Below are positions 44,901 to 60,450 of a stretch of 64,000 nt of DNA, piece after piece. The notes below the pieces were generated by a model. It was given only the letters and a program-made list of their open reading frames with translations. It had not been told where the DNA came from and did no database searches. The position numbers were made by a program, and so were the translations under genes. Position 1 is the first letter of the stretch. Every line of letters begins with the position of its first letter. Where the stretch lies: NCBI RefSeq assembly GCF_034120055.1, contig NZ_CP139368.1, forward strand, positions 3,100,001-3,164,000, in the 5' to 3' direction. Source of the stretch: Microbacterium rhizosphaerae. GTDB lineage: Bacteria; Actinomycetota; Actinomycetes; Actinomycetales; Microbacteriaceae.

Positions 44901-44985
44901 GGAGGATTCGCCTAGTGGCCTATGGCGCACGCTTGGAAAGCGTGTTGGGTGCAAGCCCTCGGGGGTTCGAATCCCCCATCCTCCG
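44901..44985 (+). tRNA. tRNA-Ser (anticodon GGA), island integration site
   Basis: Class II tRNA with a long variable arm. Acceptor GGAGGAT pairs with ATCCTCC; the anticodon stem CACGC/GCGTG holds TTGGAAA, anticodon GGA; T-loop GGTTCGAATCC. No CCA is encoded. Its last 21 bases plus 18 downstream bases recur at 60363-60401. Confidence 0.97.
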
Positions 44986-45003
44986 CTCCTGTTCTGCCTG
45001 GAA
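44965..45003 (+). repeat. left direct repeat (attL) inside tRNA-Ser
   Basis: 39 bp starting GTTCGAATCCCCC and ending CTGCCTGGAA, identical to 60363-60401. It covers part of the T-arm, the 3' acceptor strand and 18 bases beyond. Confidence 0.9.
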
Positions 45004-45032
45004 AACTGCCCAGCCCGCTCGTTTGCCATCCC

Positions 45033-45233
45033 TCATCGAACGCCACCCTTTGCAGCTTCGGTGGCGGGTGTGGCCTGACTGACGTCGGCACGCATCCGCG
45101 TGGCCACGACCTGAGGGTCGAGGCCCTTCGCCTCCATGTCGCCGGCCGGCGACGTGCGCCGCTCGGCGGTGTCGTACAGGTCGGCAGTGTCCGCGCGTGA
45201 GTCCGCCTCGGTTCCCAGCGTCCGAGCGTACGA
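45033..45233 (-). pseudogene. coding-like remnant, possibly the end of a mobilisation (relaxase-type) gene
   Basis: Minus-strand frame of about 66 codons, open back to a TAG at 45234-45236 and without a good start. Its product (ADLYDTAERR ... VATRMRADVSQATPATEA) has the composition of a real protein tail. It reminds me of C-termini of actinobacterial conjugative relaxases, but I cannot confirm this by eye. Sitting right at the island edge, it could be the last trace of a transfer gene. Confidence 0.35.
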
Positions 45234-45246
45234 CTACGGTACGAAA

Positions 45247-45570
45247 ATGGTCTGCCCTATCGAAGTATTGCCCCTCGAAGAAGCACGAGCCGCAAACGAC
45301 CTCGTTGTGGCTCAGGTCGCGATCCTCGACGATCAGGTCAGCTGGGACTGGACACTCCGGTCCCTCGCAAAGAGAGACCCGATCGCAGAAAATGCATACC
45401 GGTCAACACTCTCGGAGCCGCGAAGCACCCTGGAGCTAGCGATCGACCTCACCCTGCGCAAGGTTGGGCTAAAGCTCCAAGGCGACCCCGTCGAGGAAAG
45501 TATGATCGGGGGCCTTATCTCGCTTCGGTACCTCGTGTCACCCGAAACTCAGGCCTCCCGATTTGACTGA
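45247..45570 (+). CDS. hypothetical protein
   Basis: A 107-residue acidic, soluble protein that I do not recognise. TACGGT ends six bases before the ATG, so a leaderless start here is more likely than the longer in-frame version from 45136, whose extra part overlaps the minus-strand remnant. Confidence 0.55.
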   Translation: MVCPIEVLPLEEARAANDLVVAQVAILDDQVSWDWTLRSLAKRDPIAENAYRSTLSEPRSTLELAIDLTLRKVGLKLQGDPVEESMIGGLISLRYLVSPETQASRFD

Positions 45571-45745
45571 ATGATTGACGAATAATTCTTGTGGCCGCCA
45601 ACATGGGTCGCACCCTGAGTCAGCTGCGATTCGGCGAAGAACATCCGTCGACCGATAGCTGCGGGCAACATCGCCGGCCACGCGCTGATTCCAGTCGCGG
45701 TGCGGGCGCTGGACGGCCGCGACGGCTCAGGACGATACTCGTGAC

Positions 45746-46195
45746 ATGGTGGTGCTCGGACGGTTCCTGCTGCGGGGGCTGGCGATCGGCGTTGTCGTCG
45801 GCGCGGTGACCGGGTTGGTTCTGGGGTTGATTGCGTACCCGCCGACCGTGTGGTTCGCCATTTTGGAGCTCGGCATTCCGGGAGCTGTGGTCGGCGCCGC
45901 GTGCGGCGGGTTCGCCGGACTCGTGGTGATGGCGCGCCGAACAGATCATTCGCGCGTCGCGATCGTCGTGTTGCTGGGCATGGCCGGACTCGTTGCGGTC
46001 GCGGTGTTGTTCGCTCCGATCATCACGGGCGGCTGGTGCACGGACGCGCCCGTAAGCGCGATCTCGACATGCGAGACGATCCAGCGGTCGCTCATCGGGA
46101 TCGATACGTCGATGTGGCTGTGGCTCACTCTGACGGGGGTGGTCGTTGTCGCGACCGTGCTCGTGGCGCGGGGTAGCTGGGCCAAGCGCCCCTAG
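45746..46195 (+). CDS. hypothetical membrane protein, four helices
   Basis: A 149-residue protein with four hydrophobic segments (starting at about residues 5, 38, 70 and 120) and a cysteine pair in GGWCTDAPVSAISTCE between helices 3 and 4 that could form an extracellular disulfide. No known family recognised. No strong ribosome-binding site. Confidence 0.6.
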   Translation: MVVLGRFLLRGLAIGVVVGAVTGLVLGLIAYPPTVWFAILELGIPGAVVGAACGGFAGLVVMARRTDHSRVAIVVLLGMAGLVAVAVLFAPIITGGWCTDAPVSAISTCETIQRSLIGIDTSMWLWLTLTGVVVVATVLVARGSWAKRP

Positions 46196-46448
46196 ACGGT
46201 CCTGGAGCGTGCAGAATCCGTCCCTCACTGCGTCTTTACGGCTGGCGCTGGCCTGGAAGTATCAGCGGGTGAGAACGCGAATTGCCACTCGATCCCGGGT
46301 CAACGCGATGAGAATCACCATTGGCGGGCGCCTGTCGTCAGAAATCGCTGGGCGCGGGCAGGCCTTTCGACACTCGCCCCGTGACTGCGCCGCCGTCCGG
46401 GGACGATCACGGTTGCCGCGGCGCTGTGAGCGACGGTTTGATACCGTC

Positions 46449-47327
46449 ATGACGACCGCAGCAGAATCGCATTCCGGAGGTGCCGCCTCCCTCCCCTCTC
46501 TCGCTGTCACAGGGGTGACCGGAACGGTTGGCCGGCTCACTGCGGAGGCACTGGCCGACGCGGGAGTCCCCTTCCGGATGCTTGCCCGCGACCCGGTCCG
46601 AGCACCGCGACTGCCGGGCAGCGCCGTACTGCAGGCCGCATACGCCGACGCCGATGCGGCGCGCTCGGCCCTCGAGGGCGTAGCGGTGCTCTTCATGGTC
46701 TCAGCCGCCGAGAACGAGAACCGGCTGGCTGAGCAGGTCACGTTCGTCGACGCCGCCGCAGCGGCAGGCGTCGGACACATCGTCTACACATCGTTCTTCC
46801 GCGCGGCACCGGATGCCACCTTCATCATGGCTCGAGACGATTACGCGACCGAACAGAGAATCCGAGAGACGGGGATGACGTTCACGTTCCTCCGCGACAA
46901 CCTGTACCTCGACTTCGTGGACGGAATGATCGGTCAGGATGACGTCATCCGCGGTCCTGCGGGCAACGGCCGCGCCGCGATGGTCGCGCGAGCCGATGTC
47001 GCCCGCGTCGCCGCGCGCGTGCTCCAGGACACGGACTCCCACGCCGATGTCACCTACGATCTGACAGGTCCGGAGGCATTGACGATGGCGGAAGTCGCAG
47101 AGGTGCTCTCCAGCCGGCTCGGCCGCGCCATCTCATTCCACAATGAGACCCTCCCCGAAGCGTACGAGTCACGCAAGCACTGGAAGGCGCAGCAGTGGCA
47201 GTACGACGCTTGGATCTCCAACTACGCGGCCATCGCAGCAGGCGAGCTCGCCGGAGTGACCGACGACGTCCAGCGCGTGACCGGGCGACAGCCCCTGTCG
47301 CTCTCCCAGTTTCTGGAGTCGCGCTAA
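46449..47327 (+). CDS. NmrA-like NAD(P)-binding protein (atypical SDR)
   Basis: A 292-residue protein with a Rossmann fold: VTGVTGTVGRL near residue 20 is the NAD(P)-binding glycine motif, and LARDP, VGHIVYTSFF and TFLRDNLYLDF match NmrA/QOR2-type proteins. These act as redox sensors or quinone reductases. The ATG at 46449 lies just upstream of the conserved region; the long frame from 46146 is not supported. Confidence 0.85.
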   Translation: MTTAAESHSGGAASLPSLAVTGVTGTVGRLTAEALADAGVPFRMLARDPVRAPRLPGSAVLQAAYADADAARSALEGVAVLFMVSAAENENRLAEQVTFVDAAAAAGVGHIVYTSFFRAAPDATFIMARDDYATEQRIRETGMTFTFLRDNLYLDFVDGMIGQDDVIRGPAGNGRAAMVARADVARVAARVLQDTDSHADVTYDLTGPEALTMAEVAEVLSSRLGRAISFHNETLPEAYESRKHWKAQQWQYDAWISNYAAIAAGELAGVTDDVQRVTGRQPLSLSQFLESR

Positions 47328-47440
47328 CGATATTGGGAGTCTCGCAGGGGACGGTTGACTGGACACGGCCGACTTCATCGGACCCCCGCGGCTCATTCGA
47401 CGACGCCCGCCGGACGGTCCCGCTACGCGCACTCACAGTC

Positions 47441-47454
47441 ATACCGGTTATACT
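47441..47454 (+). promoter_or_regulatory. promoter and candidate operator of the toxin-antitoxin pair
   Basis: TATACT at 47449-47454 ends six bases before the antitoxin ATG, so the mRNA is probably leaderless. ATACCGGTTAT (47441-47451) is a short near-palindrome overlapping the -10, a plausible autoregulatory site for the ribbon-helix-helix antitoxin. Confidence 0.6.
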
Positions 47455-47460
47455 TCAGCC

Positions 47461-47706
47461 ATGAAGACGGCGATCTCTCTCCCTGACAAGGACTTCGAGC
47501 GGTTCGAACGGATCGCGGCCCGCAACGGCATGAGCCGTTCGGAGTTCTACCGACGCGCGGGCGCCAAGCTGGCGGACGAGTTGGAGGGCTCCAGCAGCCT
47601 CACCCTGATCGCGCAGGACGTGCTGACCCGCGTCGGTCAGCCGGCAGAGGATGGCCTTCTGCTCGAAGAGAACCGTCGTGTGATCGAGTCGGGCTCTGGG
47701 TGGTGA
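47461..47706 (+). CDS. type II antitoxin, ribbon-helix-helix (MazE/CopG-like)
   Basis: An 81-residue protein whose N-terminus (MKTAISLPDKDFERFERIA, NGMSRSEFYRRA) is a ribbon-helix-helix DNA-binding domain; the acidic C-terminus should bind the toxin. The gene overlaps the toxin gene by 7 bp, the usual coupled arrangement. Confidence 0.88.
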   Translation: MKTAISLPDKDFERFERIAARNGMSRSEFYRRAGAKLADELEGSSSLTLIAQDVLTRVGQPAEDGLLLEENRRVIESGSGW

Positions 47707-48047
47707 TCGCTCGCGGCGACGTCGTCTGGGTCGACTTCGGCGAGCCCCGCGGATCCGAGCCGGCGAAGGTGCGACCGACAGTCGTCTTTCAGGATGACTG
47801 GTTGCTCGCGACATCCATCAACACGATCCTCTTGATCCCCCTGACGTCGAACCTCGCACAGGAGGCCTTCCCCGGCAACGTGCTGATTCCGGCGATCGCC
47901 AGCGGGCTGGACAAGGACTCCGTTGCGCTGGTCACCCAGCTTGGGCCCGTGAGTCGCGAGTACATTCAACCCTTCGCCGCAGGTCACCTTCCCCCGTACC
48001 TCCTGAACGAACTCAGCGCCGGCGTGCACCTCGTCACCGGGACATGA
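47700..48047 (+). CDS. MazF/PemK family mRNA interferase toxin
   Basis: A 115-residue toxin. GDVVWVDFGEPRGSEPAKVRPTVV contains the conserved core with KxRPxVV, and the second half has TQLGPVSREYI as in chromosomal MazF proteins. It probably cleaves mRNA when freed from the antitoxin. Start GTG at 47700 overlapping the antitoxin stop; a GTG one codon later is possible. Confidence 0.9.
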   Translation: MVIARGDVVWVDFGEPRGSEPAKVRPTVVFQDDWLLATSINTILLIPLTSNLAQEAFPGNVLIPAIASGLDKDSVALVTQLGPVSREYIQPFAAGHLPPYLLNELSAGVHLVTGT

Positions 48048-48102
48048 GCGTACGCAGGAGGGTGGCTCAACGCGCGTCGAGTCCCGGTGCGACAATGACG
48101 CG

Positions 48103-48528
48103 ATGACCGAGACGACCTCAGCCGACCGTGGCCCGTTCTTCCACGGGACCCGGGCGAACCTCCGTGTCGGCGATCGACTTACCGCCGGGCGCCCGTCGAA
48201 CTACAGGCCCGACGTCATCATGAACCACATCTACTTCACCGCCCTGCGGGATGGGGCAGGATTGGCGGCGGAGGTCGCCGCCATGCTCGGACCTGACGGA
48301 GCACAGCCCCATGTCTACGTCGTCGAGCCCACCGGAGACTTCGAGGACGACCCGAACGTCACCGATAAGAAGTTCCCCGGCAACCCCACACGTTCTTATC
48401 GGACGAGCGCGCCGTTGGTGGTGGTCGAGGAGGTCGCCGAGTGGACGCGATTGAGTCCTGAGGCCATCGAGATGTGGCGGGGTCGGCTCATTGCGCTCCG
48501 CGAAGGCGACGCCGAGATCATCAACTAG
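48103..48528 (+). CDS. arr: NAD+--rifampin ADP-ribosyltransferase
   Basis: A 141-residue Arr enzyme that inactivates rifamycins by ADP-ribosylation at the C23 hydroxyl. Family motifs: FFHGTRANLRVGD with His14, NHIYFTAL with Tyr44, VVEPTG followed by FEDDPNVTDKKFPGNPTRSYR-type sequence. Full length. It sits alone in the island, 55 bp after the toxin gene. Arr genes are also intrinsic in many environmental actinobacteria, so this may not be recent clinical transfer. Confidence 0.94.
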   Translation: MTETTSADRGPFFHGTRANLRVGDRLTAGRPSNYRPDVIMNHIYFTALRDGAGLAAEVAAMLGPDGAQPHVYVVEPTGDFEDDPNVTDKKFPGNPTRSYRTSAPLVVVEEVAEWTRLSPEAIEMWRGRLIALREGDAEIIN

Positions 48529-48706
48529 AGACCGGATCGTCGGCCGACCGGGATCGATCCAGGCGCGGATCCCGAAAGCAGCATTGGCTACCGGTACGAA
48601 CGCCTGGCTCGCAAGCGATCCGTAAACAGGCATTGAACGTAGGCGGCCCTCGGTCGGGCATCGCACTCCGCCAGATGCGAGGTTCCGTTGGCTAGATGAT
48701 GGTGTC

Positions 48707-49153
48707 ATGTCGACCAGCCCCAATCTGACGATCCTTCCGGACACTCCCGCGGCGCGGTTGCTCGCGGAGTTGACCTCGTACTCCGATGATTTGTCCGAGG
48801 CGGCAGCCGCGATGGAGTAGGCCCTCGAGGCCGGCTCGCAGTCTCCGCTTTGGCAGCCGCTGACCAGTCACGCGGTCGTCGCCTACATGCGGGCGTTTGG
48901 ACATTCAAACGTCATGCCGGGACTCCTCAAGCACATTGATGTTCCCGAAGATCTGGTCGAAACCCACGAGATGATCCGTGTCTACCGGAACACGACGATC
49001 GCGCATTCGCAGTCCGAGTTGTCGATGTCGTTCCCGTGGGTCTCGTTGACGCCGGAGGGCACCGTGGACCGGGTGGTGCCGTTCACGATTCGCCCACCAG
49101 CTTCCTCCAAGCGCTGCTGGGCGAACCGCGAGTGCGATCGACCGGGTGAGTGA
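48707..49153 (+). pseudogene. hypothetical gene interrupted by an in-frame stop and probably a frameshift
   Basis: The frame from ATG 48707 encodes MSTSPNLTILPDTPAARLL and so on for 37 codons, then meets TAG at 48818-48820, then continues in the same frame for over 100 codons (MRAFGHSNVMPGL, VYRNTTIAHSQSEL). The last about 20 residues of that frame look unnatural, while an adjacent frame reads SAIDRVSDLVIDLMTRP, suggesting a later frameshift. Function unknown; the RNTTIAHSQ region is loosely reminiscent of HEPN-type helical proteins. Confidence 0.7.
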
Positions 49154-49203
49154 CTTGGTGATCGATCTGATGACCCGTCCGTGCGCTGACACGCGGGGAC
49201 GGC

Positions 49204-49608
49204 TCAAGGCTGGAAGTGGGCTCTGACGTCGTTGGCTTGTTCGGGGGTGAGGAGCCAACGCCCATGGTGCTGATGCCCGGGGTAGCGTTCACGCAGGTAC
49301 CGACGGACCCGCCGACCGGGTCGATCGCCATCGTCGTGGCCGAGCTCGGCGGCGAGCTGCACCGGGGTAACCATTGGCATGGTGGGGACGAGTCCGAGCA
49401 CCACCGGGTAGTTGACGTCGTCGTTCTCGAACGTGACCCACACTTCGGCGCCGATCGGAGGCGTGATCGGGGTTGCCGATCCAAGCGGGATGACGGGGAG
49501 CGCCCACGGCGACACATCAGCCCCGAAGACGTCGTAAACCGTGATTTGCAGTCGCCCCCGCTGCTGAGGGTCGATGTTGTTGATAACGACACCGCGATGA
49601 ATCGACAC
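49204..49608 (-). CDS. orphan phage baseplate V / VgrG-type OB-fold protein
   Basis: A 134-residue protein. The first 75 residues (VINNIDPQQRGRLQITV, PIGAEVWVTFEN, YPVVLGLVP) match the OB domain of phage baseplate protein gp5/V and related tube-spike proteins. The C-terminus is short and lacks a spike. No other tail genes are nearby, so it is an isolated relic or has another use. GTG start with TAGCCT ending six bases upstream (leaderless). Confidence 0.75.
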   Translation of the reverse strand: MSIHRGVVINNIDPQQRGRLQITVYDVFGADVSPWALPVIPLGSATPITPPIGAEVWVTFENDDVNYPVVLGLVPTMPMVTPVQLAAELGHDDGDRPGRRVRRYLRERYPGHQHHGRWLLTPEQANDVRAHFQP

Positions 49609-49804
49609 GGCGCCAGGCTACCCCGCGGCCGCCGCATTGCCGGTTGCGCGACGAGCCCGTGGCGTCCCGGTAGCATGCGGGAACGGGGCAACTGGGAATG
49701 CTCATCTGGTAGCAACCGCGTACGAAATCTGCGTCGGGCTCAACGCGTACCGAACTCTGAGGACCCCGACTCGCGGCGATACTTCCCGGTCCGCCCGATC
49801 CGCT

Positions 49805-49853
49805 TGTCGGCGGCGCCTGAATCCTGGTCGCTTTCGGCGCTCGAATTGTGAAC
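49805..49853. repeat. left terminal inverted repeat of the IS21 element
   Basis: Starts TGTCGGCGGCGCCTGAATCC; contains a second internal repeat CGGCGCTCGAATTGTGAAC at 49835-49853, as IS21 ends carry multiple transposase sites. Confidence 0.9.
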
Positions 49854-49866
49854 GGTTGCGGGCAGT

Positions 49867-51875
<2,009 letters not shown>

Positions 51876-51891
51876 TCTCCAATCGTTGAGT

Positions 51892-51940
51892 GTTCACTTT
51901 TCGAGCGCCGCTACTGTCCAGTTTTCGAGCGCCGCCGACA
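51892..51940. repeat. right terminal inverted repeat of the IS21 element
   Basis: Ends GCGCCGCCGACA; read inward it is TGTCGGCGGCGCTCGAAAAC, then the internal copy GTTCACTTTTCGAGCGCCG at 51892-51910. Confidence 0.9.
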
Positions 51941-51943
51941 CCG

Positions 51944-52135
51944 CTAGTGGTGCAGGAAGGCGAACAGGTCGTAGACCATGAATGCCGGCCAGAAGAGGCC
52001 CTCGACGATCGCCCAGACGTAGCCCCAGAACTGATCGGCCTGCGACCAGAACCAGAACCACGCACCGATGATGCCGAGGCTGTAGATCGCGCCGCCGCCG
52101 ACGATGGCGCCTGTACCCGAATTCCGCTCGCTCAT
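51944..52135 (-). CDS. small hypothetical membrane protein
   Basis: A 63-residue protein with two aromatic-rich membrane helices (LGIIGAWFWFW and WAIVEGLFWPAFMVY). This aromatic, two-helix pattern is common in actinobacterial small membrane proteins of unknown function. The stop codon borders the IS target duplication but is intact. Confidence 0.7.
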   Translation of the reverse strand: MSERNSGTGAIVGGGAIYSLGIIGAWFWFWSQADQFWGYVWAIVEGLFWPAFMVYDLFAFLHH

Positions 52136-52338
52136 TCGCGCCCTCCCAGCGCTGAGCCTATGCCCGGCTCCTGCCTGTCGTCACCCGGGGCGAAGCACGC
52201 ACTGACCTTCCCTCAGCAGCTCCTGATCCGGGCGGTGAGCCCAAGAAGTAGCTCGAGTGCGGCCTCCAACGCGTTCGGTTCGGGTCCCGATGCGCGCAAT
52301 CGGCATCGGATGCGCTCTCTCCGCGCTACTACGACGCG

Positions 52339-52785
52339 GTGAGTCCGATTGACTATCTGGCGGTCTGGAGTTTCACCGCCGCGCTCCTCCTTACCGGCCC
52401 TGCTGTGGTCTACCTGTCTCGCTTGTCGCCGTCGCGCAGCGTCCGCGTGATCGCGCTCGTTGCCGGGGCAGGGGCGGTGCTCGCGGGGTTCGCGAACGCC
52501 GCCGAGGACGCGCTGCGCCTTCCGGGAACGGGAGACGTCTTTGTCGCGGGAATGCTTGTGATGCTCGCCGGTGTGCTCGCGTGCGCGGCGATTCTTGCGG
52601 TCTTCCGAAGCTGGCGACTGGCAGCCGCGTTCGCACTGTTGTCCGCCGGGATGCTCATATCCTTCGCTCTCCCCGGCGGTGGGTTGCTCATTCTCCTTGC
52701 TCTGGTCGCCGTCGCCGCAAAGCCGACTTGCTTCACAGTCGCCGCCGGCGACGCACCAGACGAGCGCCGCTCCGCCATTGAATGA
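52339..52785 (+). CDS. hypothetical membrane protein
   Basis: A 148-residue protein with four hydrophobic helices. I do not recognise the family. GTG start; no clear ribosome-binding site. Confidence 0.6.
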   Translation: MSPIDYLAVWSFTAALLLTGPAVVYLSRLSPSRSVRVIALVAGAGAVLAGFANAAEDALRLPGTGDVFVAGMLVMLAGVLACAAILAVFRSWRLAAAFALLSAGMLISFALPGGGLLILLALVAVAAKPTCFTVAAGDAPDERRSAIE

Positions 52786-53001
52786 CCAGGGTCGCTGATT
52801 CCCTGTCGCTTGCCAGAAGTGCCCAAAGGCGGGTCCCTCTACGCGCCGCACCCGTTCGCGGGACCCATCCGCCCACGTGGACGCCACGCCGGGGCATCGG
52901 TCTGATTCGGTGCGTTGCGTGTGGACGGTGGCTAGACCGTACTGCTACCGGCATCCTGCGCCGCCGTGCTGAAGGCTCGGCTCGCTCTGGGAGAATGCCA
53001 T

Positions 53002-53109
53002 ATGCCGTTTGCACCTCTTCTGCACACCTTGGACGCAGATCGAGGTTCGTTCCGCGTTGGTCGTCGCAGTCCGACCATGCGAGAGTTCGACTGGTCGGCG
53101 GCACCGTGA
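53002..53109 (+). CDS. possible 35-residue leader ORF before the gene at 53106
   Basis: ATG at 53002 has GGGAG nine bases upstream; the frame ends in TGA overlapping the next GTG (GTGA), the usual sign of translational coupling. The peptide (MPFAPLLHTLDADRG...) has no family. The stretch 52786-53001 before it contains nothing else I can support. Confidence 0.35.
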   Translation: MPFAPLLHTLDADRGSFRVGRRSPTMREFDWSAAP

Positions 53110-53408
53110 CCCGCCGCATCGAGGTGGCTCTGCACAAGCCCAGGCTCGCGCTCTACGCCAGGATCAAGCCGACACTCGTGATCGCGGGGCGCGGTCATCC
53201 CGTCCAGTGGGGGCTCGGCACGTGGCAGGTTCCCTCAGACCAGACAGTGATCATCCGGGTATTCCTCTTCAACAGGCTCTGGCGATTCGGTCAGGCGGAG
53301 TTCGCGCTCGAACCGGCGCACGCGCCCTCGCTCGTATATCGTGCGCCAGTCCTGCCGTTTCTCCGCGGACGGATCCACGTCCAGTCGAGCGGGAACGCAC
53401 CGGCCTGA
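53106..53408 (+). CDS. hypothetical protein
   Basis: A 100-residue basic protein, MTRRIEVALHKPRLALY... with WGLGTWQVPSDQT and VFLFNRLWRFG. It reads like a small beta-rich domain seen in Microbacteriaceae proteins of unknown function. The longer frame from 52782 adds only Arg-rich sequence and is not supported. Confidence 0.6.
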   Translation: MTRRIEVALHKPRLALYARIKPTLVIAGRGHPVQWGLGTWQVPSDQTVIIRVFLFNRLWRFGQAEFALEPAHAPSLVYRAPVLPFLRGRIHVQSSGNAPA

Positions 53409-53555
53409 CCGCCGTCCGATGGGGGTCCCGTACCGGGCCGAAGTCTGGTCAGACCTGGCTTGCGTTCCGGGCACCAGGGTCCAGCATGACGCAGTACTTG
53501 GGGGCGCTACGACCGCGTCGTTGGTCTCGAGCGGTGCGACGTCGGCATCGGGACG

Positions 53556-54038
53556 ATGATCATAGATCTCGAGTTCCGCACCGAATCGCTGGCGCACGCA
53601 CCTTCGACCGACGAGGCGCGCCGAGCGACGGACGCTGCCCTCGCGCTCGTGTATCGGATACAGGACGCGCTAAAGGGGCGACGCGGGGCAGCCTATTGGG
53701 CGGACGTCGACGGAACCGCCGACGGGATTCTCACCGGGGCAGTCAACGTGGCTCGGAACGTCAATACCCATTCGCTGGTCATAGAGTCGGGACATTCTGA
53801 GGTTCACCCGAGTCGGAACGTATTTCCCGGAGCGGACCTCACGCTCGGACCCACGTTTCGATGGGCGGACTATGGGGCCATCGCTGGTGCCCTCGTCGCT
53901 CCGAGGATTGGCGCGCGTGACCGTCGGGCCGACTACAGAGAGATGCTCCCGCAGAGAGCGGTCGTGCCAACGCTCCGCACAGTTGGCAGTTTCTACCGCG
54001 CACAGCTCACAGCGGCTACGCCCGACCCCGACGAGTAG
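53556..54038 (+). CDS. hypothetical protein
   Basis: A 160-residue soluble protein that I do not recognise. No strong ribosome-binding site. 53409-53555 and 54039-54233 hold no gene I can support. Confidence 0.55.
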   Translation: MIIDLEFRTESLAHAPSTDEARRATDAALALVYRIQDALKGRRGAAYWADVDGTADGILTGAVNVARNVNTHSLVIESGHSEVHPSRNVFPGADLTLGPTFRWADYGAIAGALVAPRIGARDRRADYREMLPQRAVVPTLRTVGSFYRAQLTAATPDPDE

Positions 54039-54233
54039 TGACGGGCCTCAGTGAACTTCCGTTCGAGCGGGGCGGCCGCCGTGATCGCCTACGGGGTTCG
54101 GAAGGGACGACGGGAATTCCCCATGCGCCACAGAGTGTATGGCCCGCAGCCACCACCTTAGGTGCGGAAGACCGTCCCCGTTCGGGCAGATTGTAACGGA
54201 GGGTGGCACGCGGGCGTGGTCCTAGTGCGGGTG

Positions 54234-54623
54234 CTATTCGGCGAATACCTCGGCTGCGATGCCGTAGCTCTCGAAGGCGCGGGCGGCGCCAGCGTACGCG
54301 CTGATTTGGATGAAGGCCTCGACGACTTCTTCTCTGGTGACACCGTTGTTGAGTGCGATACGGAGCTGGCCACGGAGCGGTTCGAGGACGCCGAGCGTGG
54401 CGGCGATGGTGACTGAGATTAAGGCGCGGGTGCGGGTGTCAATGTGTTCCGTGCGGGGCCATGCGGCACCGAACGCCTGAACGGTGGCGAGTCGTTTGAA
54501 ATCAGCTGCGTTGGCCGGCTCGGTCTCGGTGGCGCCGAGGAATCGCTCGAGGCGGAATCCGAGCATCCGCTCTGCTTCGTCCAGGGCGGCGGCGAACTGG
54601 CGGTCTTCTTCGTCGGTGGTCAT
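54234..54623 (-). CDS. carboxymuconolactone decarboxylase family protein
   Basis: A 129-residue AhpD/CMD-like protein. RTRALISVTIAATLG, LRIALNNGVTREEVVEAFIQISAYAG and the following Ala-rich helix are the CMD fold. It lacks the CXXC of AhpD peroxidase-type members, so it is more like gamma-carboxymuconolactone decarboxylase homologues. ATG at 54623 with AAGGA upstream. Confidence 0.9.
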   Translation of the reverse strand: MTTDEEDRQFAAALDEAERMLGFRLERFLGATETEPANAADFKRLATVQAFGAAWPRTEHIDTRTRALISVTIAATLGVLEPLRGQLRIALNNGVTREEVVEAFIQISAYAGAARAFESYGIAAEVFAE

Positions 54624-54945
54624 GGTCTTCCTTGGTGGGGTGTCGGCTTGGGGAGATGAGGATTGAACGAGGGCAAGAGGCCGGAGAGTCCGGCGCGGAT
54701 GGCGGTGTCGTGTGCTGTCACCGGCTATTGCGCGCTCCTGGCGTGATGCCGCCAGTGCGTGGACCAGCTCGGGCGTGTGAGAGGGTGGTTGGGGGAGTCG
54801 GTGCCTCATGGATCGTTGTTGTGGCGATCGCGGTCATCCCGGCGACGTTCGCCATCACTCTGGCACTTGCCTTCCCGCTGTTCGTCGGCTCAGGGAGGCT
54901 CTGCTCCTTCGCGCCGGGGACCGCGGCCAGTGACTCGGGATGCCG
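54624..54945. other. 322-bp gap with a hydrophobic plus-strand frame
   Basis: A plus-strand frame across about 54790-54940 encodes a membrane-like stretch (IVVVAIAVIPATFAITLALAF, then a Cys-containing tail), but it has no good start or ribosome-binding site and runs into the antisense of the next gene. It may be a decayed gene fragment. Otherwise nothing is visible. Confidence 0.4.
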
Positions 54946-55326
54946 TCAGGCGGCGGGCGCGGTAGCCGCGGTCAGCACGATGAGCGGACTGTGCGCGATC
55001 ATCTCGTCGACATCGTCTCTGCGCCATCGGCGTGCGGCGGCCTCGATGAGCGGCCGTGCTTCGTGGGGATCGGTGATGACCCGCGCCGTGGCAGGAATGT
55101 CGGCCTCGATGCCGTTCTTCAAATGCACGATGACGTGGGGGTCAGCGGTGATGTTCTGGATCCAGTCCCGTATGCGGTCTCGACGCGGCATCCCGGTGAT
55201 GAACAGCACGCCGTCCTCATCGTGCAGGAAGATCTCGATGCGGCGAGGTAGCCGGCTACGGCGACCGGTCGTGGTCAAGTCGATGAGCTGACTTCGGTGC
55301 AGGGCCGTGTTGACGTCGTTGTTCAC
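54946..55326 (-). CDS. nitroreductase/deazaflavin-dependent family protein (DUF385-like)
   Basis: About 126 residues. LTTTGRRSRLPRRIEIFLHDEDGVLFITGM and the DWIQNITADPHVIVHLKNG stretch fit the F420-dependent nitroreductase (Ddn/DUF385) split beta-barrel family. The natural substrate is unknown. Start uncertain: GTG 55326 gives MNNDVNTALHR; a GTG at 55356 would add ten residues. Confidence 0.8.
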   Translation of the reverse strand: MNNDVNTALHRSQLIDLTTTGRRSRLPRRIEIFLHDEDGVLFITGMPRRDRIRDWIQNITADPHVIVHLKNGIEADIPATARVITDPHEARPLIEAAARRWRRDDVDEMIAHSPLIVLTAATAPAA

Positions 55327-55544
55327 ACGTGTTGAAGCAATCTCGCTGCTGCACACATTCCACGCGATCGGTGAGACTTTCTATGCAACGCTGATGGCCA
55401 ACGCGCCCGGTAGGAAGGCCAAGTCTGTGCCAGCCGGTCGTTGAGAGCTCGATCACCGTGCTTAACTCGGTCGGCTTGCGGGCAGGATGTTACGTGTGCT
55501 CTTGATCGGATTGTGTGCGTGAACCCCGATGCGGGGAGTAGCTG

Positions 55545-55805
55545 ATGGCGCTCGAACGAGATCTTCGACGACTCGCGGACGACCTCGGGACACATATTGG
55601 GGCTGAGCTCGTCGCCGAGTTCGTAGAGTTCGTCGACGTCGGTGAGTACGGCGTTGGTCTCGAGATCCTCTGCGATCGTCTATCGGACGACGCAGAGCCG
55701 TTGTTGAGGCGAGAGATCGTGGCGATCCGGGCACTCGCCGATGCCATGGGTATCGACCGTCCGAGCGTCGCGGACCTTAGTGAGCTCGCTGTCGAGGACC
55801 AGTGA
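55545..55805 (+). CDS. MafI family immunity protein
   Basis: An 86-residue acidic, helical protein. EFVDVGEYGVGLEILCDRL and the ALADAMGID ending match MafI-type immunity proteins, which neutralise polymorphic toxins. GGGAG before the ATG. No cognate toxin gene is visible in the island, so it is an orphan. Confidence 0.8.
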   Translation: MALERDLRRLADDLGTHIGAELVAEFVEFVDVGEYGVGLEILCDRLSDDAEPLLRREIVAIRALADAMGIDRPSVADLSELAVEDQ

Positions 55806-55918
55806 TATCTCGTCCGCAGGCCGGTCCGCGAGCGAACGGGTCCATGTAGGTGGGGGCGGAGGCGTCAGCCCCGCCGCTGGCCTCAAACCCACCACCCGCG
55901 CGAGTTCATTTCGGTTCC

Positions 55919-56278
55919 TCAGCCCGGGCCGTTGGGATTGGTGAGATCGTAGGCGCGAGAAAGCTTCTTGGGGACGACCATCCGCCAAGCGTCGACGACG
56001 AGCTCGCGAGCCTCAGTCGGTTCCAGGGACGCCAGATCTGCGTGGACCCAGTTGAAGCGCAAGTCTGACGCCGATGGCATCTGGAACTTGCGTGGGTCGC
56101 CGCCGACCAACGCCGCTCGCTCCTCCTTCGGGAAGGCGAAACCCATCACGCTTTCGTCGAGCGAGAACGCCACGTAGACCAGCTGACCGACGCGGAACTT
56201 CAACCTCCCGCGCACATACACCGGGTATGAGCGCTCCAATGCGCCGCCAAGCGCCAGAACATCCTCGATCACAGCCAT
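55919..56278 (-). CDS. MmcQ/YjbR family protein
   Basis: A 119-residue protein with the MmcQ/YjbR fold: RLKFRVGQLVYVAFSLDE, MGFAFPKEERAALV, NWVHADLASLEPTEARELVVDAW. These small domains resemble DNA-binding proteins, but the function is unknown. The ATG at 56278 is chosen because the conserved region starts directly after it; the longer frame is shadow sequence. Confidence 0.85.
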   Translation of the reverse strand: MAVIEDVLALGGALERSYPVYVRGRLKFRVGQLVYVAFSLDESVMGFAFPKEERAALVGGDPRKFQMPSASDLRFNWVHADLASLEPTEARELVVDAWRMVVPKKLSRAYDLTNPNGPG

Positions 56279-56448
56279 CTCAGAACCCGTCCGATATGCG
56301 CGAGACAGTGTGCCCGTTCGCACGCTGTCAAGGACCACATCTTCCTGTCGATGCTCGTCATCCGCAACGTGGGAACAACGACAAGCGAGATCGACCGCGG
56401 GATTCGTCGCGTTCGCGACCGATGGCGGGTCCCTTTGCGTGCGGGAAA

Positions 56449-56541
56449 CTACCGCCTGCGTCGGACGATGAGGAATACCACCACTAGGACAACGAACAGA
56501 GTAGCGAACACCGCGACCAAGGCTCCGGCACTGATCCCCAT
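56449..56541 (-). CDS. 30-residue single-helix membrane peptide
   Basis: ATG at 56541-56539 has a perfect ribosome-binding site, GAGGAGG, with a 5-base gap. The peptide starts MGISAGALVAVFA, is almost entirely hydrophobic for 22 residues and ends RRRR before TAG. This is the pattern of a real small membrane protein with a positive-inside anchor. Partner and role unknown; it could be regulatory or toxic (type I TA-like). Confidence 0.65.
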   Translation of the reverse strand: MGISAGALVAVFATLFVVLVVVFLIVRRRR

Positions 56542-56681
56542 CAGGTCCTCCTCGCAGATGTCGCGACGCGACCGTATCAGGGTAGTTCTCCTGGTAGGGC
56601 CGCACGATGCCGGTCGCTGACCGGGCTGCTCACCTCAATCGCCGAGCGCCTCGGGCGTGCGCTGTCCCCGCTGCAGGAACA

Positions 56682-57029
56682 CTACCGGCCCTGCCGTTTC
56701 TTGTAGGGCTTGGGCTGACCTTTCACGACAGGGGTGCGACCCTTGCCCTTCGAGGCCTTGGCCTTGCCGCCGGGCGGAACCACAGGTTTCGGCGCCGGCG
56801 TGGGAGCGGCGGCGATCTCCTCCCTGGCCGTGACAAGAAGGAGCGCTCCGGCTTTGGTCAAGCGTGTCTGGGCGCTGTCGCGGACGAACAGCGGCTGCCC
56901 GAGCTCATTCTCGAGCTTCTCGATCGACGAGTACAAGGCAGCCAGCGGGATGTTCAAGGCGTCCGCTGCTCGCGGAAAGTGCAGCTCATCGGCGACGGCG
57001 ACGAACCGGATGAGCAGGCTGATATCCAC
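56682..57029 (-). CDS. short LysR-type HTH protein with basic Pro/Lys-rich tail
   Basis: A 115-residue protein. Residues 1-65 are a LysR winged helix-turn-helix (DELHFPRAADALNIPLAALYSSIEKLE, then LFVRDSAQTRLTKAG), but the inducer-binding domain is replaced by a basic, Pro/Lys-rich tail (KAKASKGKGRTPVVKG). Similar mini-LysR proteins occur in Microbacteriaceae. It likely binds DNA, possibly non-specifically through the tail. GTG at 57029 with AAAGGA upstream. Confidence 0.8.
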   Translation of the reverse strand: MDISLLIRFVAVADELHFPRAADALNIPLAALYSSIEKLENELGQPLFVRDSAQTRLTKAGALLLVTAREEIAAAPTPAPKPVVPPGGKAKASKGKGRTPVVKGQPKPYKKRQGR

Positions 57030-57173
57030 AAGATCCTTTCGCGATCCTTCCCCCCAAGATAGTGAGGTGGGGGAAGTCGGGGGACCTGCGCGACGGGCAT
57101 ACCGAGTACATGGACGCTTCATCCGGCAGGACCCCCGGCACGCAGCGGGTCCGTCAACGAGCGCTTGCAACGC

Positions 57174-57803
57174 CTAGGAGAGGAACTCGGGGCGTACCTC
57201 GGCAACCCCATCAAGCTCGCGCCGCAGCTGTTCGACCAACTCAACGCCCCGCTGCTCCCACTCGGCGGGATGCGCCAGTGGCTCATTCTCGTCGCGGTCG
57301 AGCCACTCCTCGTTCCAGTCGAACAGGGCGTCGGCCAGCTCGCGCGTGACGGTCAGGGACTGGTCATCGAGTCGGTAGTGGTCGGTGAAGCTCTCCCACA
57401 ACGGCCACCCGCCCCACCACTCGGGAAAGACGCGGATCAGTCGAAGGCCGTTGGGCAGCACCACAGCCAAACCGCGCCTGCGTCTGGCGCTCAGGTATCG
57501 GTCTTGCATCTGCCGCCGGCGCCGCCATTCAAGCGCGGTCGCTGGCCAATCGTTGTAGTCCATGCCCGAAAGCCACAGCAGCCCGCGTCGACCACGAGCG
57601 TCATCTTGGACGAGCGCAAGCGACCACAGGTGCTCGCCGCCGTTCGCGAGCGCATGTGCAGACTCGAGCGCCTCCTCGACCGTAGCGTCCGCGATGTCCA
57701 TCACCGTCGTCGTGTTGCCCGCGCCTTTGAAAACGTAGACGCGAAAGCGTGGGTCATTCCTCTCCCAGGTCGAGTCGCGCTCGTCGACATACTCCCCGCG
57801 CAC
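57174..57803 (-). CDS. hypothetical protein
   Basis: A 209-residue acidic soluble protein, Trp-rich (GMDYNDWPATALEW, FPEWWGGWPLWESF). No family recognised. GTG start with TAGATT ending six bases upstream, so probably leaderless. Confidence 0.65.
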   Translation of the reverse strand: MRGEYVDERDSTWERNDPRFRVYVFKGAGNTTTVMDIADATVEEALESAHALANGGEHLWSLALVQDDARGRRGLLWLSGMDYNDWPATALEWRRRRQMQDRYLSARRRRGLAVVLPNGLRLIRVFPEWWGGWPLWESFTDHYRLDDQSLTVTRELADALFDWNEEWLDRDENEPLAHPAEWEQRGVELVEQLRRELDGVAEVRPEFLS

Positions 57804-58006
57804 TCGATCAATCTACGAGGATGTTGCTGAAGGTGGGTCCACTTGCGTGCGACGTCGCTTGTGACGTTTGACTCGGAGGCGTACGGGTGCCTCGCGCGTT
57901 GGAATCGCTTTCACCGTGCCCGGTGTTCCTGCAGTTGCTGGCGGTCGCGTTGGGGTGCTGATCGTGGTGGGCGATGGGCTCGAGGTGTCTAGGTCGGGTT
58001 TCGGCG

Positions 58007-58834
58007 ATGCCTCTTCCGTTCTGGGTGGCCGATCGCGATGCTGGTGCGGTGCGGATCATCGATGACGGAGAGGCGGGAGTGCCGGATCCCCGCCCGGCGT
58101 CGTGGGAGAAGATCCGGGAGCTTCCCGTTCCCGCGATGACGTTCGTTCGGCAGCCGACCGTCGAGGATGCGATCCCAGGCTTCCAGTCGGGGAACGATGG
58201 CACCGGCCTGGTGGAGTTGTGCGTCGACTTCACGTACACGCTGGTCCGCAGTCCCGACGATCGCGCGGCTCCCGAGAATCTCCGAGAGCTGGACGAGGGC
58301 ACCCGGCGGGCGCTCGAGGAGCTCCCCTACCGGAACCGGCCGAACTGGGTCGTGGAGATGGCCGAGCGACTGCGCTTCCCGCAGCTTCACGAGGCGGTGC
58401 GCACCAGCTGGCACCGCGAAGAGCACGAGCGCTCAACCGTGGATGCCATCCTGCTCCATCACGTCAACCACGTGCTGCGGAACTACGTCCGCGCCGAGCG
58501 CGGCTGGGACGGTCGGCTCGGGAGTCTGAACCCGGCGCCCGATGTCACGGCCGCCGCCATCCAGCGCGATGCCCGCGTGGTCGTGGATGGGCGGATGCTG
58601 GACGGCATCCGCATCGACACCGATCCTCACGTCTACGGCCTCGGCGCCGCACTGCCCAGCGGGGGCGTTCTCACGGCAGCTGAGACCGATGATGGACGAC
58701 CCACCGCCGTTGCTCGTCGACACCCCGGCCGTCGTCGGCGAATCCGAGCGGCGAGCGGCGCCGATCGCCGAGTGGGAGGATGCGTGGCCCGGGATCTGGC
58801 GCGATGCCCTGCGGTTTGCCGGCACACCCCGTGA
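58007..58834 (+). CDS. hypothetical protein, C-terminus doubtful
   Basis: 275 residues from the ATG at 58007. The first about 225 residues look like a normal soluble protein (MPLPFWVADRD, VELCVDFTYTLVRSP, HHVNHVLRNYVRAERGW). The last about 45 residues are Arg-rich and overlap the next gene by 143 bp in another frame; normal protein-like sequence seems to stop near 58685. A frameshift here would let a TGA at 58690-58692 end the protein right at the next gene's ATG. Function unknown. Confidence 0.6.
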   Translation: MPLPFWVADRDAGAVRIIDDGEAGVPDPRPASWEKIRELPVPAMTFVRQPTVEDAIPGFQSGNDGTGLVELCVDFTYTLVRSPDDRAAPENLRELDEGTRRALEELPYRNRPNWVVEMAERLRFPQLHEAVRTSWHREEHERSTVDAILLHHVNHVLRNYVRAERGWDGRLGSLNPAPDVTAAAIQRDARVVVDGRMLDGIRIDTDPHVYGLGAALPSGGVLTAAETDDGRPTAVARRHPGRRRRIRAASGADRRVGGCVARDLARCPAVCRHTP

Positions 58835-59204
58835 CGACCACGCGTTCGACCGGATGCGTTCGGCGTCGCCGGGAGACGAACGCGCCGCGCTCATCAAGGA
58901 GATGATCGGTCCATCGTGGGACGACATCTTCGGTCGTGATGCGCTGACCGAGGATCACCAGCGCTGGCAGCGGGCGGTGGGCGAACGCCGGATGGCACAA
59001 TCGATGAACGCCGTGGGCGAGCAACCCGAACACGTTGCGCTCGACGCGGTGATCGCGGCGTGGCGGACGGGGCTCACCACCATCGTCCAGATCCCTTGCC
59101 GGGGATCCTTCACCCGCGTGATCGGCGCGCACACCCTGCTCCTCACAGCCGAAACCCGCGCCGACATCGACCGGTACCGGTCCGCGCTCGCCCTCTTCCG
59201 CTGA
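58692..59204 (+). CDS. hypothetical protein
   Basis: 170 residues from ATG 58692 (ATG 58689 also possible), starting MDDPPPLLVDTPAVVGESERRAAPIAEW. Motifs AWPGIWRDALRFAG and EMIGPSWDDIFGRD are not known to me. It is downstream of and overlaps the previous gene, so the two probably work together. Confidence 0.65.
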   Translation: MDDPPPLLVDTPAVVGESERRAAPIAEWEDAWPGIWRDALRFAGTPRDDHAFDRMRSASPGDERAALIKEMIGPSWDDIFGRDALTEDHQRWQRAVGERRMAQSMNAVGEQPEHVALDAVIAAWRTGLTTIVQIPCRGSFTRVIGAHTLLLTAETRADIDRYRSALALFR

Positions 59205-59369
59205 CGATGTGGCACAGTCGTGTGGGGCCTGAAGCAACGCGCGGTGCGGCCAGATCTCGACATCAACTTGCGATTCGTCGACTCGGTGTGCGCGCGCCAT
59301 ACTGGTACGCTCGCTCGACTGTCCGACCGAGTACGCGGACGCCTGCCGCGGTGAACACAAATCGGTCCT

Positions 59370-59936
59370 TCACCGAACGGCGTCGACGAGTGATCCGCGG
59401 AGCCAGCGTTCGACCTGGCGCTGAGACTCGAGGCGGACCACAGCCAGACCAGCATGGTCATGTTCGAGCGCCGGCACGCGCGTTCGATACGTGTTCCGGG
59501 TGGAGACCGCCCATCGCACGATGTGCTCCCGGTCGCTGAAGATCGTGTGCAACGGGGGCTCGACGTTGCCGTTCCACAAGATCTCGCGTCGCAATCGCCT
59601 CCGAATCGTGCGTCGCACGACGCGGGGGAGAGTGACCGTCGCGAACCGCAGATCCAGCCAGACCAGCGTGTCGGCGGCGGCCGCGAGGAGCGGCCGCGCG
59701 GTCGAGTACTGCCACTCGGTGGTCCATGACTCTTCGGCGATCAGTGTGCGCACGTCGTCGAGGAAGTCGTCGCGCGGAACCCAGCCGGCGCCGTGATACA
59801 GCGCGTCGATCTCGGTATGCGGGGCATCGATGATCTCCGCGATTCGACTCGCGAGGCTCGTCTTTCCGACCCCCGACACTCCCGCGACCAAGACACGTTT
59901 CGGCCGTACCGGGAGCGGGTCGTCGAAGCGCAGCAC
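59370..59936 (-). CDS. P-loop NTPase, adenylate-kinase/topology-modulation-like
   Basis: A 188-residue small kinase-like protein. P-loop GVSGVGKTSLA, the DALYH Asp motif after it, WLDLRFATVTLPRVVRRTIRRR and a REHIVRWA LID-like region resemble the FlaR/adenylate-kinase-like family. Substrate unknown. GTG at 59936 is preceded by TACCAT with exactly seven bases between, so leaderless. The longer frame from 60275 translates a simple repeat and is rejected. Confidence 0.82.
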   Translation of the reverse strand: MLRFDDPLPVRPKRVLVAGVSGVGKTSLASRIAEIIDAPHTEIDALYHGAGWVPRDDFLDDVRTLIAEESWTTEWQYSTARPLLAAAADTLVWLDLRFATVTLPRVVRRTIRRRLRREILWNGNVEPPLHTIFSDREHIVRWAVSTRNTYRTRVPALEHDHAGLAVVRLESQRQVERWLRGSLVDAVR

Positions 59937-60362
59937 GCTGCCGATGGTATCGATCTCGCCTTCTCGACCGCCCGACCGCGGAGCAGGCCGAAGACGCAAG
60001 CGCTCGAGAGGTGCTGCTGATCGCCGGCCTGCGGCCCTGTCGTCGCATATGACCCGCTCGGTCCCATGCCCGATCGGCGGGCGACATACGCGCGAGGCAT
60101 CTCGAACCTCGAGTGGCCGTACTATGCCCGACTCCTCTACCGGCCCAAGACGGAGGACGAAGACGACGGACGGACCAAGAGGCGGTCGAGAACCAAGACG
60201 AAGACCAAGACCAAGAACCAAGACGAAGAACCAAGACGAGAACCGAGAGAGAGAAGAAGCAACGCACGCCGGCACTTTGCAGTGTCACGCCCCCGATCCC
60301 ATGCAATATCAGGGATCGGGTGTAAACCAGGTTGCACGGCTCGAGGCATTAGTAAAACGAGA
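59937..60362. other. non-coding end of the island
   Basis: Apart from the purine-rich simple repeat at 60145-60262 and the promoter of the NTPase gene, I see nothing coding here. The sequence just before the right att copy shows no tRNA fragment beyond the repeat itself. Confidence 0.5.
60145..60262. repeat. purine-rich CCAAGA/CGAAGA simple repeat
   Basis: Imperfect tandem hexamers such as GACCAAGACGAAGACCAAGA, strongly purine-biased on the plus strand. This is unusual for GC-rich actinobacterial DNA. Frames across it encode Arg/Lys/Thr or Leu/Val runs and are not genes. Confidence 0.8.
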
Positions 60363-60401
60363 GTTCGAATCCCCCATCCTCCGCTCCTGTTCTGCCTGGA
60401 A
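60363..60401 (+). repeat. right direct repeat (attR) of the tRNA-Ser island
   Basis: Perfect 39-bp copy of the tRNA-Ser 3' end and flank (GTTCGAATCCCCC ... CTGCCTGGAA). It is not part of a functional tRNA. The identity stops after GGAA (next AAC at left, GAC at right). Confidence 0.9.
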
Positions 60402-60450
60402 GACACTGGGATCGCGCCCCCTCCAAACGTCGCGTGACAGACCTCCTTCT

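Follow-up and report, generated by a model that had tools for sequence, protein, structure and literature searches.

Which kind of element has left a 15.4-kb segment next to a serine tRNA gene of Microbacterium rhizosphaerae, framed by a perfect direct repeat and without a recognizable integrase gene? The segment lies in a stretch of 64,000 nucleotides (hereafter the window), corresponding to positions 3,100,001-3,164,000 of a genome that consists of a single contig of 4,057,055 bases. A preliminary description of this DNA had proposed a site-specific island that has either lost its integrase or is mobilized in trans by an integrase encoded elsewhere, as a cis-mobilizable element (CIME) would be. 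Comparison with other members of the genus favors the first option: with a probability of about 0.85, the 15.4 kb constitute the decayed remains of an integrative element from a genus-wide family that targets the 3' end of tRNA-Ser(GGA), and the integrase has been lost. This reading is supported by cognate integrases at the same tRNA in relatives and by a truncated element gene at the right end of the island. Mobilization in trans of the present island is doubtful, as the genome contains neither a detected close relative of the cognate integrase nor, other than in another tRNA, a third copy of the core at up to two mismatches, and as the arm sites are not detectable.

The repeat is as first described, with the 39-bp sequence present in exactly two copies on the forward strand of the window, with zero mismatches. 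By our own arithmetic, a perfect match of this length within 64 kb is far beyond chance. The left copy is indeed formed by the intact 3' end of tRNA-Ser(GGA), and the number of bases that follow it is 17, where 18 had been counted. The right copy (60363-60401) is free-standing, as had been stated, and is not preceded by a tRNA body. The exact 21-bp core, GTTCGAATCCCCYATCCTCCG, occurs twice in the genome. When up to two mismatches are allowed, a single further copy appears, which belongs to a tRNA-Ser with anticodon TGA at 3795 kb; a third copy of the repeat or of its core beside an integrase gene was thus not found at this threshold.

The absence of an integrase from the island also stands. 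At E <= 0.001, the genome has nine matches to the tyrosine recombinase family PF00589 and two to the resolvase-type family PF00239, none of them in the window (PF07508 was not searched). A home-made integrase profile, built from integrases collected in the present analysis, has no match at E 0.05 among the open reading frames of at least 60 amino acids in the window and its flanks (3,090,001-3,200,000), so that not even an integrase fragment of this length was detected. Neither the integrase nor two neighboring element genes have left a convincing trace in 44987-84000. Conjugation or mobilization genes are absent from the Pfam matches of the given island frames, for which no dedicated relaxase search was made.

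The cognate integrase is found in relatives. In genome G052, a tyrosine integrase of 408 amino acids (PF00589; phrog_1 integrase) is encoded 2.2 kb from the tRNA core, and a second, free core lies 37.4 kb away from the tRNA core. With this integrase as the query (E 1e-100), 366 genomes of the genus Microbacterium were surveyed, our own genome included, and five first-look candidates were scored per genome. The family is present in 16 of them, with identities of 74-89% (the query genome excepted), and all 16 integrases are located on the same contig as a core, at a distance of 0.1-10.5 kb. The exact core itself was found in 104 of the 366 genomes, the other 262 being uninformative. Every integrase-bearing genome (16/16) has at least two cores, as against only five of the 88 core-bearing genomes without the integrase, a difference with a Fisher p of 7.7e-15 that is not corrected for relatedness; the other 83 have a single copy. 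Core copies lie on different contigs in G169, G222, G386, G355 and G003. The five two-core genomes without the family integrase are our own genome, G176, G148, G342 and G003. G342 has an integrase remnant of 95 amino acids between its cores and is therefore not a clean integrase-less case, and neither is G003, since both its core copies are at contig ends.

The ends of these elements have a common build. An arm motif, GGCACAGTT, is present within 300 bp of the left end in 15 of the 16 integrase-bearing genomes (G228 lacks it), and the 150 bp that precede the distal core (the P arm) are alike: 18 of 19 distal cores score above all 100 shuffles, while one core of G011 fails. Beyond eight of the 19 distal cores there is further sequence that resembles an element left end and exceeds all 200 shuffles. 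Judged from these sequences, tandem arrays or their relics look common. The direct repeats were measured in 15 integrase-bearing genomes and are 22-27 bp long in 13 of them. The two longer ones are those of G386 (48 bp) and G107 (31 bp), and in both the left end of an element follows directly beyond the distal core, as it does in the present island.

At the right inner end of the island, a small gene known from the integrase-bearing elements is recognizable up to 16 bases from the core; it is broken here and intact in relatives. In addition, its leader is matched by BLAST in G233, G107, G104, G209, G386 and G011, and G052 was aligned by way of its own copy of the gene. The nine bases that adjoin the right core are all identical to those of G052. 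At the left inner end, 17 of 22 bases agree in register with G052 (P about 2e-6 for one comparison, the best among the cores of other genomes that were compared). On the far side of the right core, the following 90 bases reach a score of 31 against element left ends, the maximum of 200 shuffles being 17, and positions 60363-60439 match the tRNA ends of G052 and G176 with identities of 83% and 82%, respectively. Because the right inner end is a truncated element gene and an element left end follows outside the right repeat, the island can be assigned to the family of the G052/G176 type. Position 60363 would then most likely be the joint between two elements in tandem, that is, a product of accretion, and this is also the likely reason why the repeat is as long as 39 bp.

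A junction in which the tRNA passes directly into the sequence from 60402 onward had been suggested as the sign of an empty site. Such a junction does exist in at least two relatives, G052 and G176, over 77 bp (60363-60439). An empty chromosomal site in these two genomes is nevertheless ruled out, since the sequence in question is the left end of an element. The base composition also bears on the joint at the right. The drop in G+C begins at the tRNA, and beyond the right repeat the values are 68.9% (60402-71500), 68.0% (to 82.0 kb), 70.1% (to 89.5 kb) and 71.4% (to 100 kb), window coordinates being continued past 64 kb. Since the reduced G+C extends past 60401, this position has the appearance of an inner joint, with foreign DNA seemingly continuing beyond it. 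Just to the right of the joint lies a pair of response-regulator and kinase genes whose distant relatives (45% and 35%) are found within the G104 island. Apparently arsenic-related genes, judged by eye and without a family call, are found within 67.6-81.4 kb, and relatives of several of these arsenic-like genes occur within some kilobases of the tRNA in G101, G145, G028 and others. The coordinates of all features are collected in Table 1.

Table 1. Features of the tRNA-Ser(GGA) island and its borders, in window coordinates
Position	Strand	Feature	Basis
44901..44986	+	tRNA-Ser(GGA), intact, with the integration target at its 3' end	ARAGORN
44965..45003	+	39-bp direct repeat, left copy: the last 22 bp of the tRNA and 17 bp of apparent element left end (P' side)	In-register similarity to G052 element end
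44987..45010	+	Probable remnant of element left inner end (P'); similarity to G052 stops at about 45010; arm repeats and integrase missing	17/22 bases in register
45004..60362		Integrase-less island, 65.7% G+C, compared with 70.0% in window 1-44900	
47461..48047	+	CopG-type antitoxin and PemK-MazF-type toxin gene pair	Pfam PF01402, PF02452
48103..48528	+	Rifampin ADP-ribosyltransferase-like gene	PF12120, NF033144
49805..51940	-	Complete IS21-family insertion sequence	istA 50664-51875, istB 49867-50664
54713..55454	-	Deazaflavin-dependent oxidoreductase region	Identity of 89% to DNA located 1.4 kb from the tRNA-Ser core in G149
58251..58566	+	Part of a cargo gene	68% to a segment of the G355 element located between its tRNA and its integrase
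60259..60346	+	Start of the small gene of integrase-bearing elements (leader and first codons), truncated	85% over 88 bp to G176; alignment with eight relatives
60363..60401	+	Right copy of the 39-bp repeat: core and left end of the next (probably tandem) element	
60402..60439	+	P'-like left inner end of a second element, also decayed and most likely in tandem	Score and identity to G052/G176

Several observations weigh against the interpretation as a decayed member of this family. In local alignment, the left inner end has a weak score of 14, a value that 11 of 200 shuffles also attain and that is not convincing; its identification as an element end rests on the in-register count. Apart from the fragment at the right end, the element core genes that were tested (the integrase, its two neighbors and the small gene) have left no trace inside the island, so that separate deletions at both ends must be assumed. 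None of the available genomes represents the same species with an empty site, and, with two candidates scored per genome, the same gene order was seen in no relative among the matches listed. Furthermore, the usual arm or P arm is also missing from the left end of the integrase-bearing G228 and from one distal core of G011. Finally, G052, G019, G375 and G170 have repeats of only 22-23 bp and yet element-like sequence beyond the distal core; repeat length is no strict indicator of a tandem joint.

As a decayed family member, the island may have had the following history. By analogy with the intact relatives, its own tyrosine integrase or that of a sibling would have recombined the core of the element with the core of the tRNA. 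After this insertion, an intact tRNA would have bordered one side and a free core the other, the latter adjoining a second element of the same left-end type through tandem accretion. Later deletions presumably removed the integrase and the left arm sites next to the tRNA and, at the opposite end, the small gene together with the right arm sites, while the IS21 element and cargo genes may have come and gone. The segment would by now be a fixed chromosomal island.

Could the island, instead, still function as a CIME? A family integrase arriving on another element would then excise or co-transfer it by means of the two 39-bp cores. The core repeats are perfect on both sides, cognate integrases do circulate in the genus (16/366), and segments that lack an integrase but have kept their arms exist in three relatives. 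In G176 (5.3 kb between the cores) and G148 (4.9 kb), both integrase-less, the right P arm exceeds all 100 shuffles, although at the left end of G176 the exact GGCACAGTT is missing. On contig C86 of G355, a segment of 5.95 kb has arms at both ends and is negative with the integrase profile; to judge by its sequence, it is a good candidate for a CIME. For such arm-bearing integrase-less islands of relatives, mobilization in trans is plausible. The present island, however, differs in precisely these parts. Its right inner P arm is not detectable, the score being reached by 41 of 100 shuffles, whereas nearly all distal cores in integrase-bearing genomes keep this arm, and the exact GGCACAGTT motif, kept by nearly all left ends, is absent within 300 bp inside either island end. 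A suitable integrase is not apparent in its own genome either: a search at E 1e-100, in which 5 of 15 candidates were scored, detected no protein closely related to the cognate integrase. That the island is a functional CIME is therefore unlikely. In a more speculative picture, to which we attach little credence, small segments of core and arms without an integrase (G176, G148 and C86 of G355) would travel in the genus as passengers of sibling integrases, and the present island would be the armless end point of this series, with cores that are still recombinable when a sibling arrives.

The integrases of the own genome were considered as a source of mobilization in trans and rejected. Eight of the nine PF00589 loci align with the G052 integrase, all distantly: the best-scoring alignments have 24% identity over 374 amino acids and 31% over 169, and short pieces of 38-39 amino acids reach 45-49%. 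Three of the nine loci contain a tRNA of another kind (Ser-CGA, Arg and Ala). The 13-base words that these loci have in common with the island ends are few and looked like chance, no control having been run, and the P arm of G052 has one match in the own genome, with E 0.04, at 2674 kb.

A different integrase, with arm sites that are not recognized and were since lost together with its gene, might also have inserted the island. The absence of G052-type arms would fit such an origin, and in G011 a divergent integrase with other arm-like repeats is indeed found beside the same core. Nevertheless, we consider it improbable, and it was already disfavored by the bases next to the cores, which match G052 on the left (17/22) and on the right (9/9), and by two further features of the G052/G176 type, the gene fragment with which the island ends on the right and the element left end that lies beyond it. 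Moreover, the two inner ends, of about 500 bases each, do not share a single 10-base word. A simple duplication of a tRNA fragment within 15.4 kb of ordinary chromosome, which would explain that only 39 bp are shared and that an integrase is not found, is very improbable in view of the single core in 83 of the 88 genomes with the exact core but without the family integrase, the fall in G+C at the tRNA, the resemblance of the 17 shared bases beyond the tRNA to element ends, and the element gene fragment that forms the right end of the island.

How does a decayed family member of this kind compare with known systems? According to a review of integrative and mobilizable elements, CIMEs have lost the genes for integration and transfer and kept attL and attR, and their accretion is described there as well (PMC5704250). 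A survey of Streptococcus salivarius reports many CIMEs, with classical sizes of 1.2-13 kb, and cites 215 CIMEs in 303 genomes of S. agalactiae at one tRNA-Lys site (PMC7563491). As portrayed in these two sources, streptococcal CIMEs in tandem accretion arrays resemble the present island in their att core repeats at the 3' end of a target gene, the absence of an integrase, the presence of cargo and the tandem position next to the end of another element (PMC5704250, PMC7563491). The island has such attL/attR repeats at its target gene, and no gene for integration or excision was found in it (PF07508 aside); the truncated gene at 60259-60346 is in line with an origin by deletion from an integrative element, the deletions themselves being surmised. 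The definition given in the review includes attL and attR, while the island has kept its cores and its arm sites are not detectable (PMC5704250); as far as the sequence tells, complete attachment sites that a related integrase could use do not appear to be present. Unlike the CIMEs of these two sources, the island has no integrase-bearing partner that can now be found in its array (PMC5704250, PMC7563491), and with 15.4 kb it is slightly above the classical range of S. salivarius (PMC7563491).

The intact elements of the genus (G052, G104, G107, G134, G209, G228 and others) occupy the same tRNA and use the same 21-22-bp core. The island shares the left-end type of G052 and G176 and contains the small gene of these elements as a fragment at its right end. 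It thus has the core repeat and the element-type ends of the tRNA-Ser(GGA) family (the left end by in-register count only), without a cognate integrase near the tRNA. The intact elements keep a tyrosine integrase of about 400 amino acids, a replication-initiator-like gene (in G052) and, nearly always, the arm sites, whereas the island has none of these. The 5.3-kb mini-island of G176 is similar to the present one in that no integrase was found between two exact cores and in its left-end type, but it has kept the right P arm, more of the left end and the full-length gene, and is the better CIME candidate. The present island is accordingly classed as a decayed, CIME-like element and not as a CIME that still functions. 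Decayed elements in tandem arrays are of a known kind and represent an ordinary, well-documented fate, not a new system. Among the papers listed in literature searches on tRNA genes and recombinases of Microbacterium, none deals with the present site by its title.

In this manner, an unexplained integrase-less island becomes a case with a likely cause, and the tRNA site, the core and the arm sequences used by a genus-wide integrase family become apparent. The island itself is an ordinary decayed element. The census yields intact elements, arm-bearing integrase-less elements and armless elements at one site, which can be used to test which parts of the attachment sites are needed for the mobilization of passengers.

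Besides the features in Table 1, the cargo comprises genes for an NmrA-like oxidoreductase and a carboxymuconolactone decarboxylase, a short LysR-type frame of which only the DNA-binding part is matched, and a fragment with a baseplate OB domain. The IS21 element is complete, as had been noted, with terminal inverted repeats, istA and istB, and a 5-bp target duplication at 49800-49804 and 51941-51945; it is 82% identical to a copy on a Microbacterium plasmid. The rifampin ADP-ribosyltransferase-like gene is commonly matched elsewhere in the genus, with identities of 70-79% at the DNA level. The island as a whole block was not seen in relatives: in two genus-wide searches, with two candidates scored per genome, no non-self match among those listed exceeds about 750 bases. 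At megablast sensitivity, island DNA was found in three plasmid records, in all of them only as the IS21 part, and in no phage. PADLOC detected no defense families among ten frames.

Some further observations concern the relatives and the remainder of the genome. In G011, four tRNA-Ser cores follow one another on contig C16 (70306-121191; L198, L199 and L194), a natural multi-element array with three integrase genes, of which one is divergent and lies near a core with different arm-like repeats. The element of G052 carries a gene resembling those for replication initiation proteins (L032:10498-11181; phrog_2447, E 1.4e-17), and relatives of this gene are present, within the parts that were fetched, in 12 of the 16 integrase-bearing elements, G052 included. 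This hints at a phage-satellite or plasmid-like origin of the element family. In the mini-island of G176 (L084), arsenic-type genes, named by eye, occur together with the small gene at full length, which in the window is truncated. The C86 segment of G355 (L202:1000-6974) contains a transposase of the Mutator family, and the integrase of that genome is found on another contig. Two tyrosine integrase sequences of the own genome, at 29.5 kb (L006) and 3991 kb (L010), are alike by eye; one adjoins tRNA-Ser(CGA), and the other is truncated and lies beside an apparent cut copy of the 3' end of that tRNA. Within the island, finally, short tandem repeats with a CAAGAC-like unit occupy positions 60171-60255 of the window, just inside the right end.

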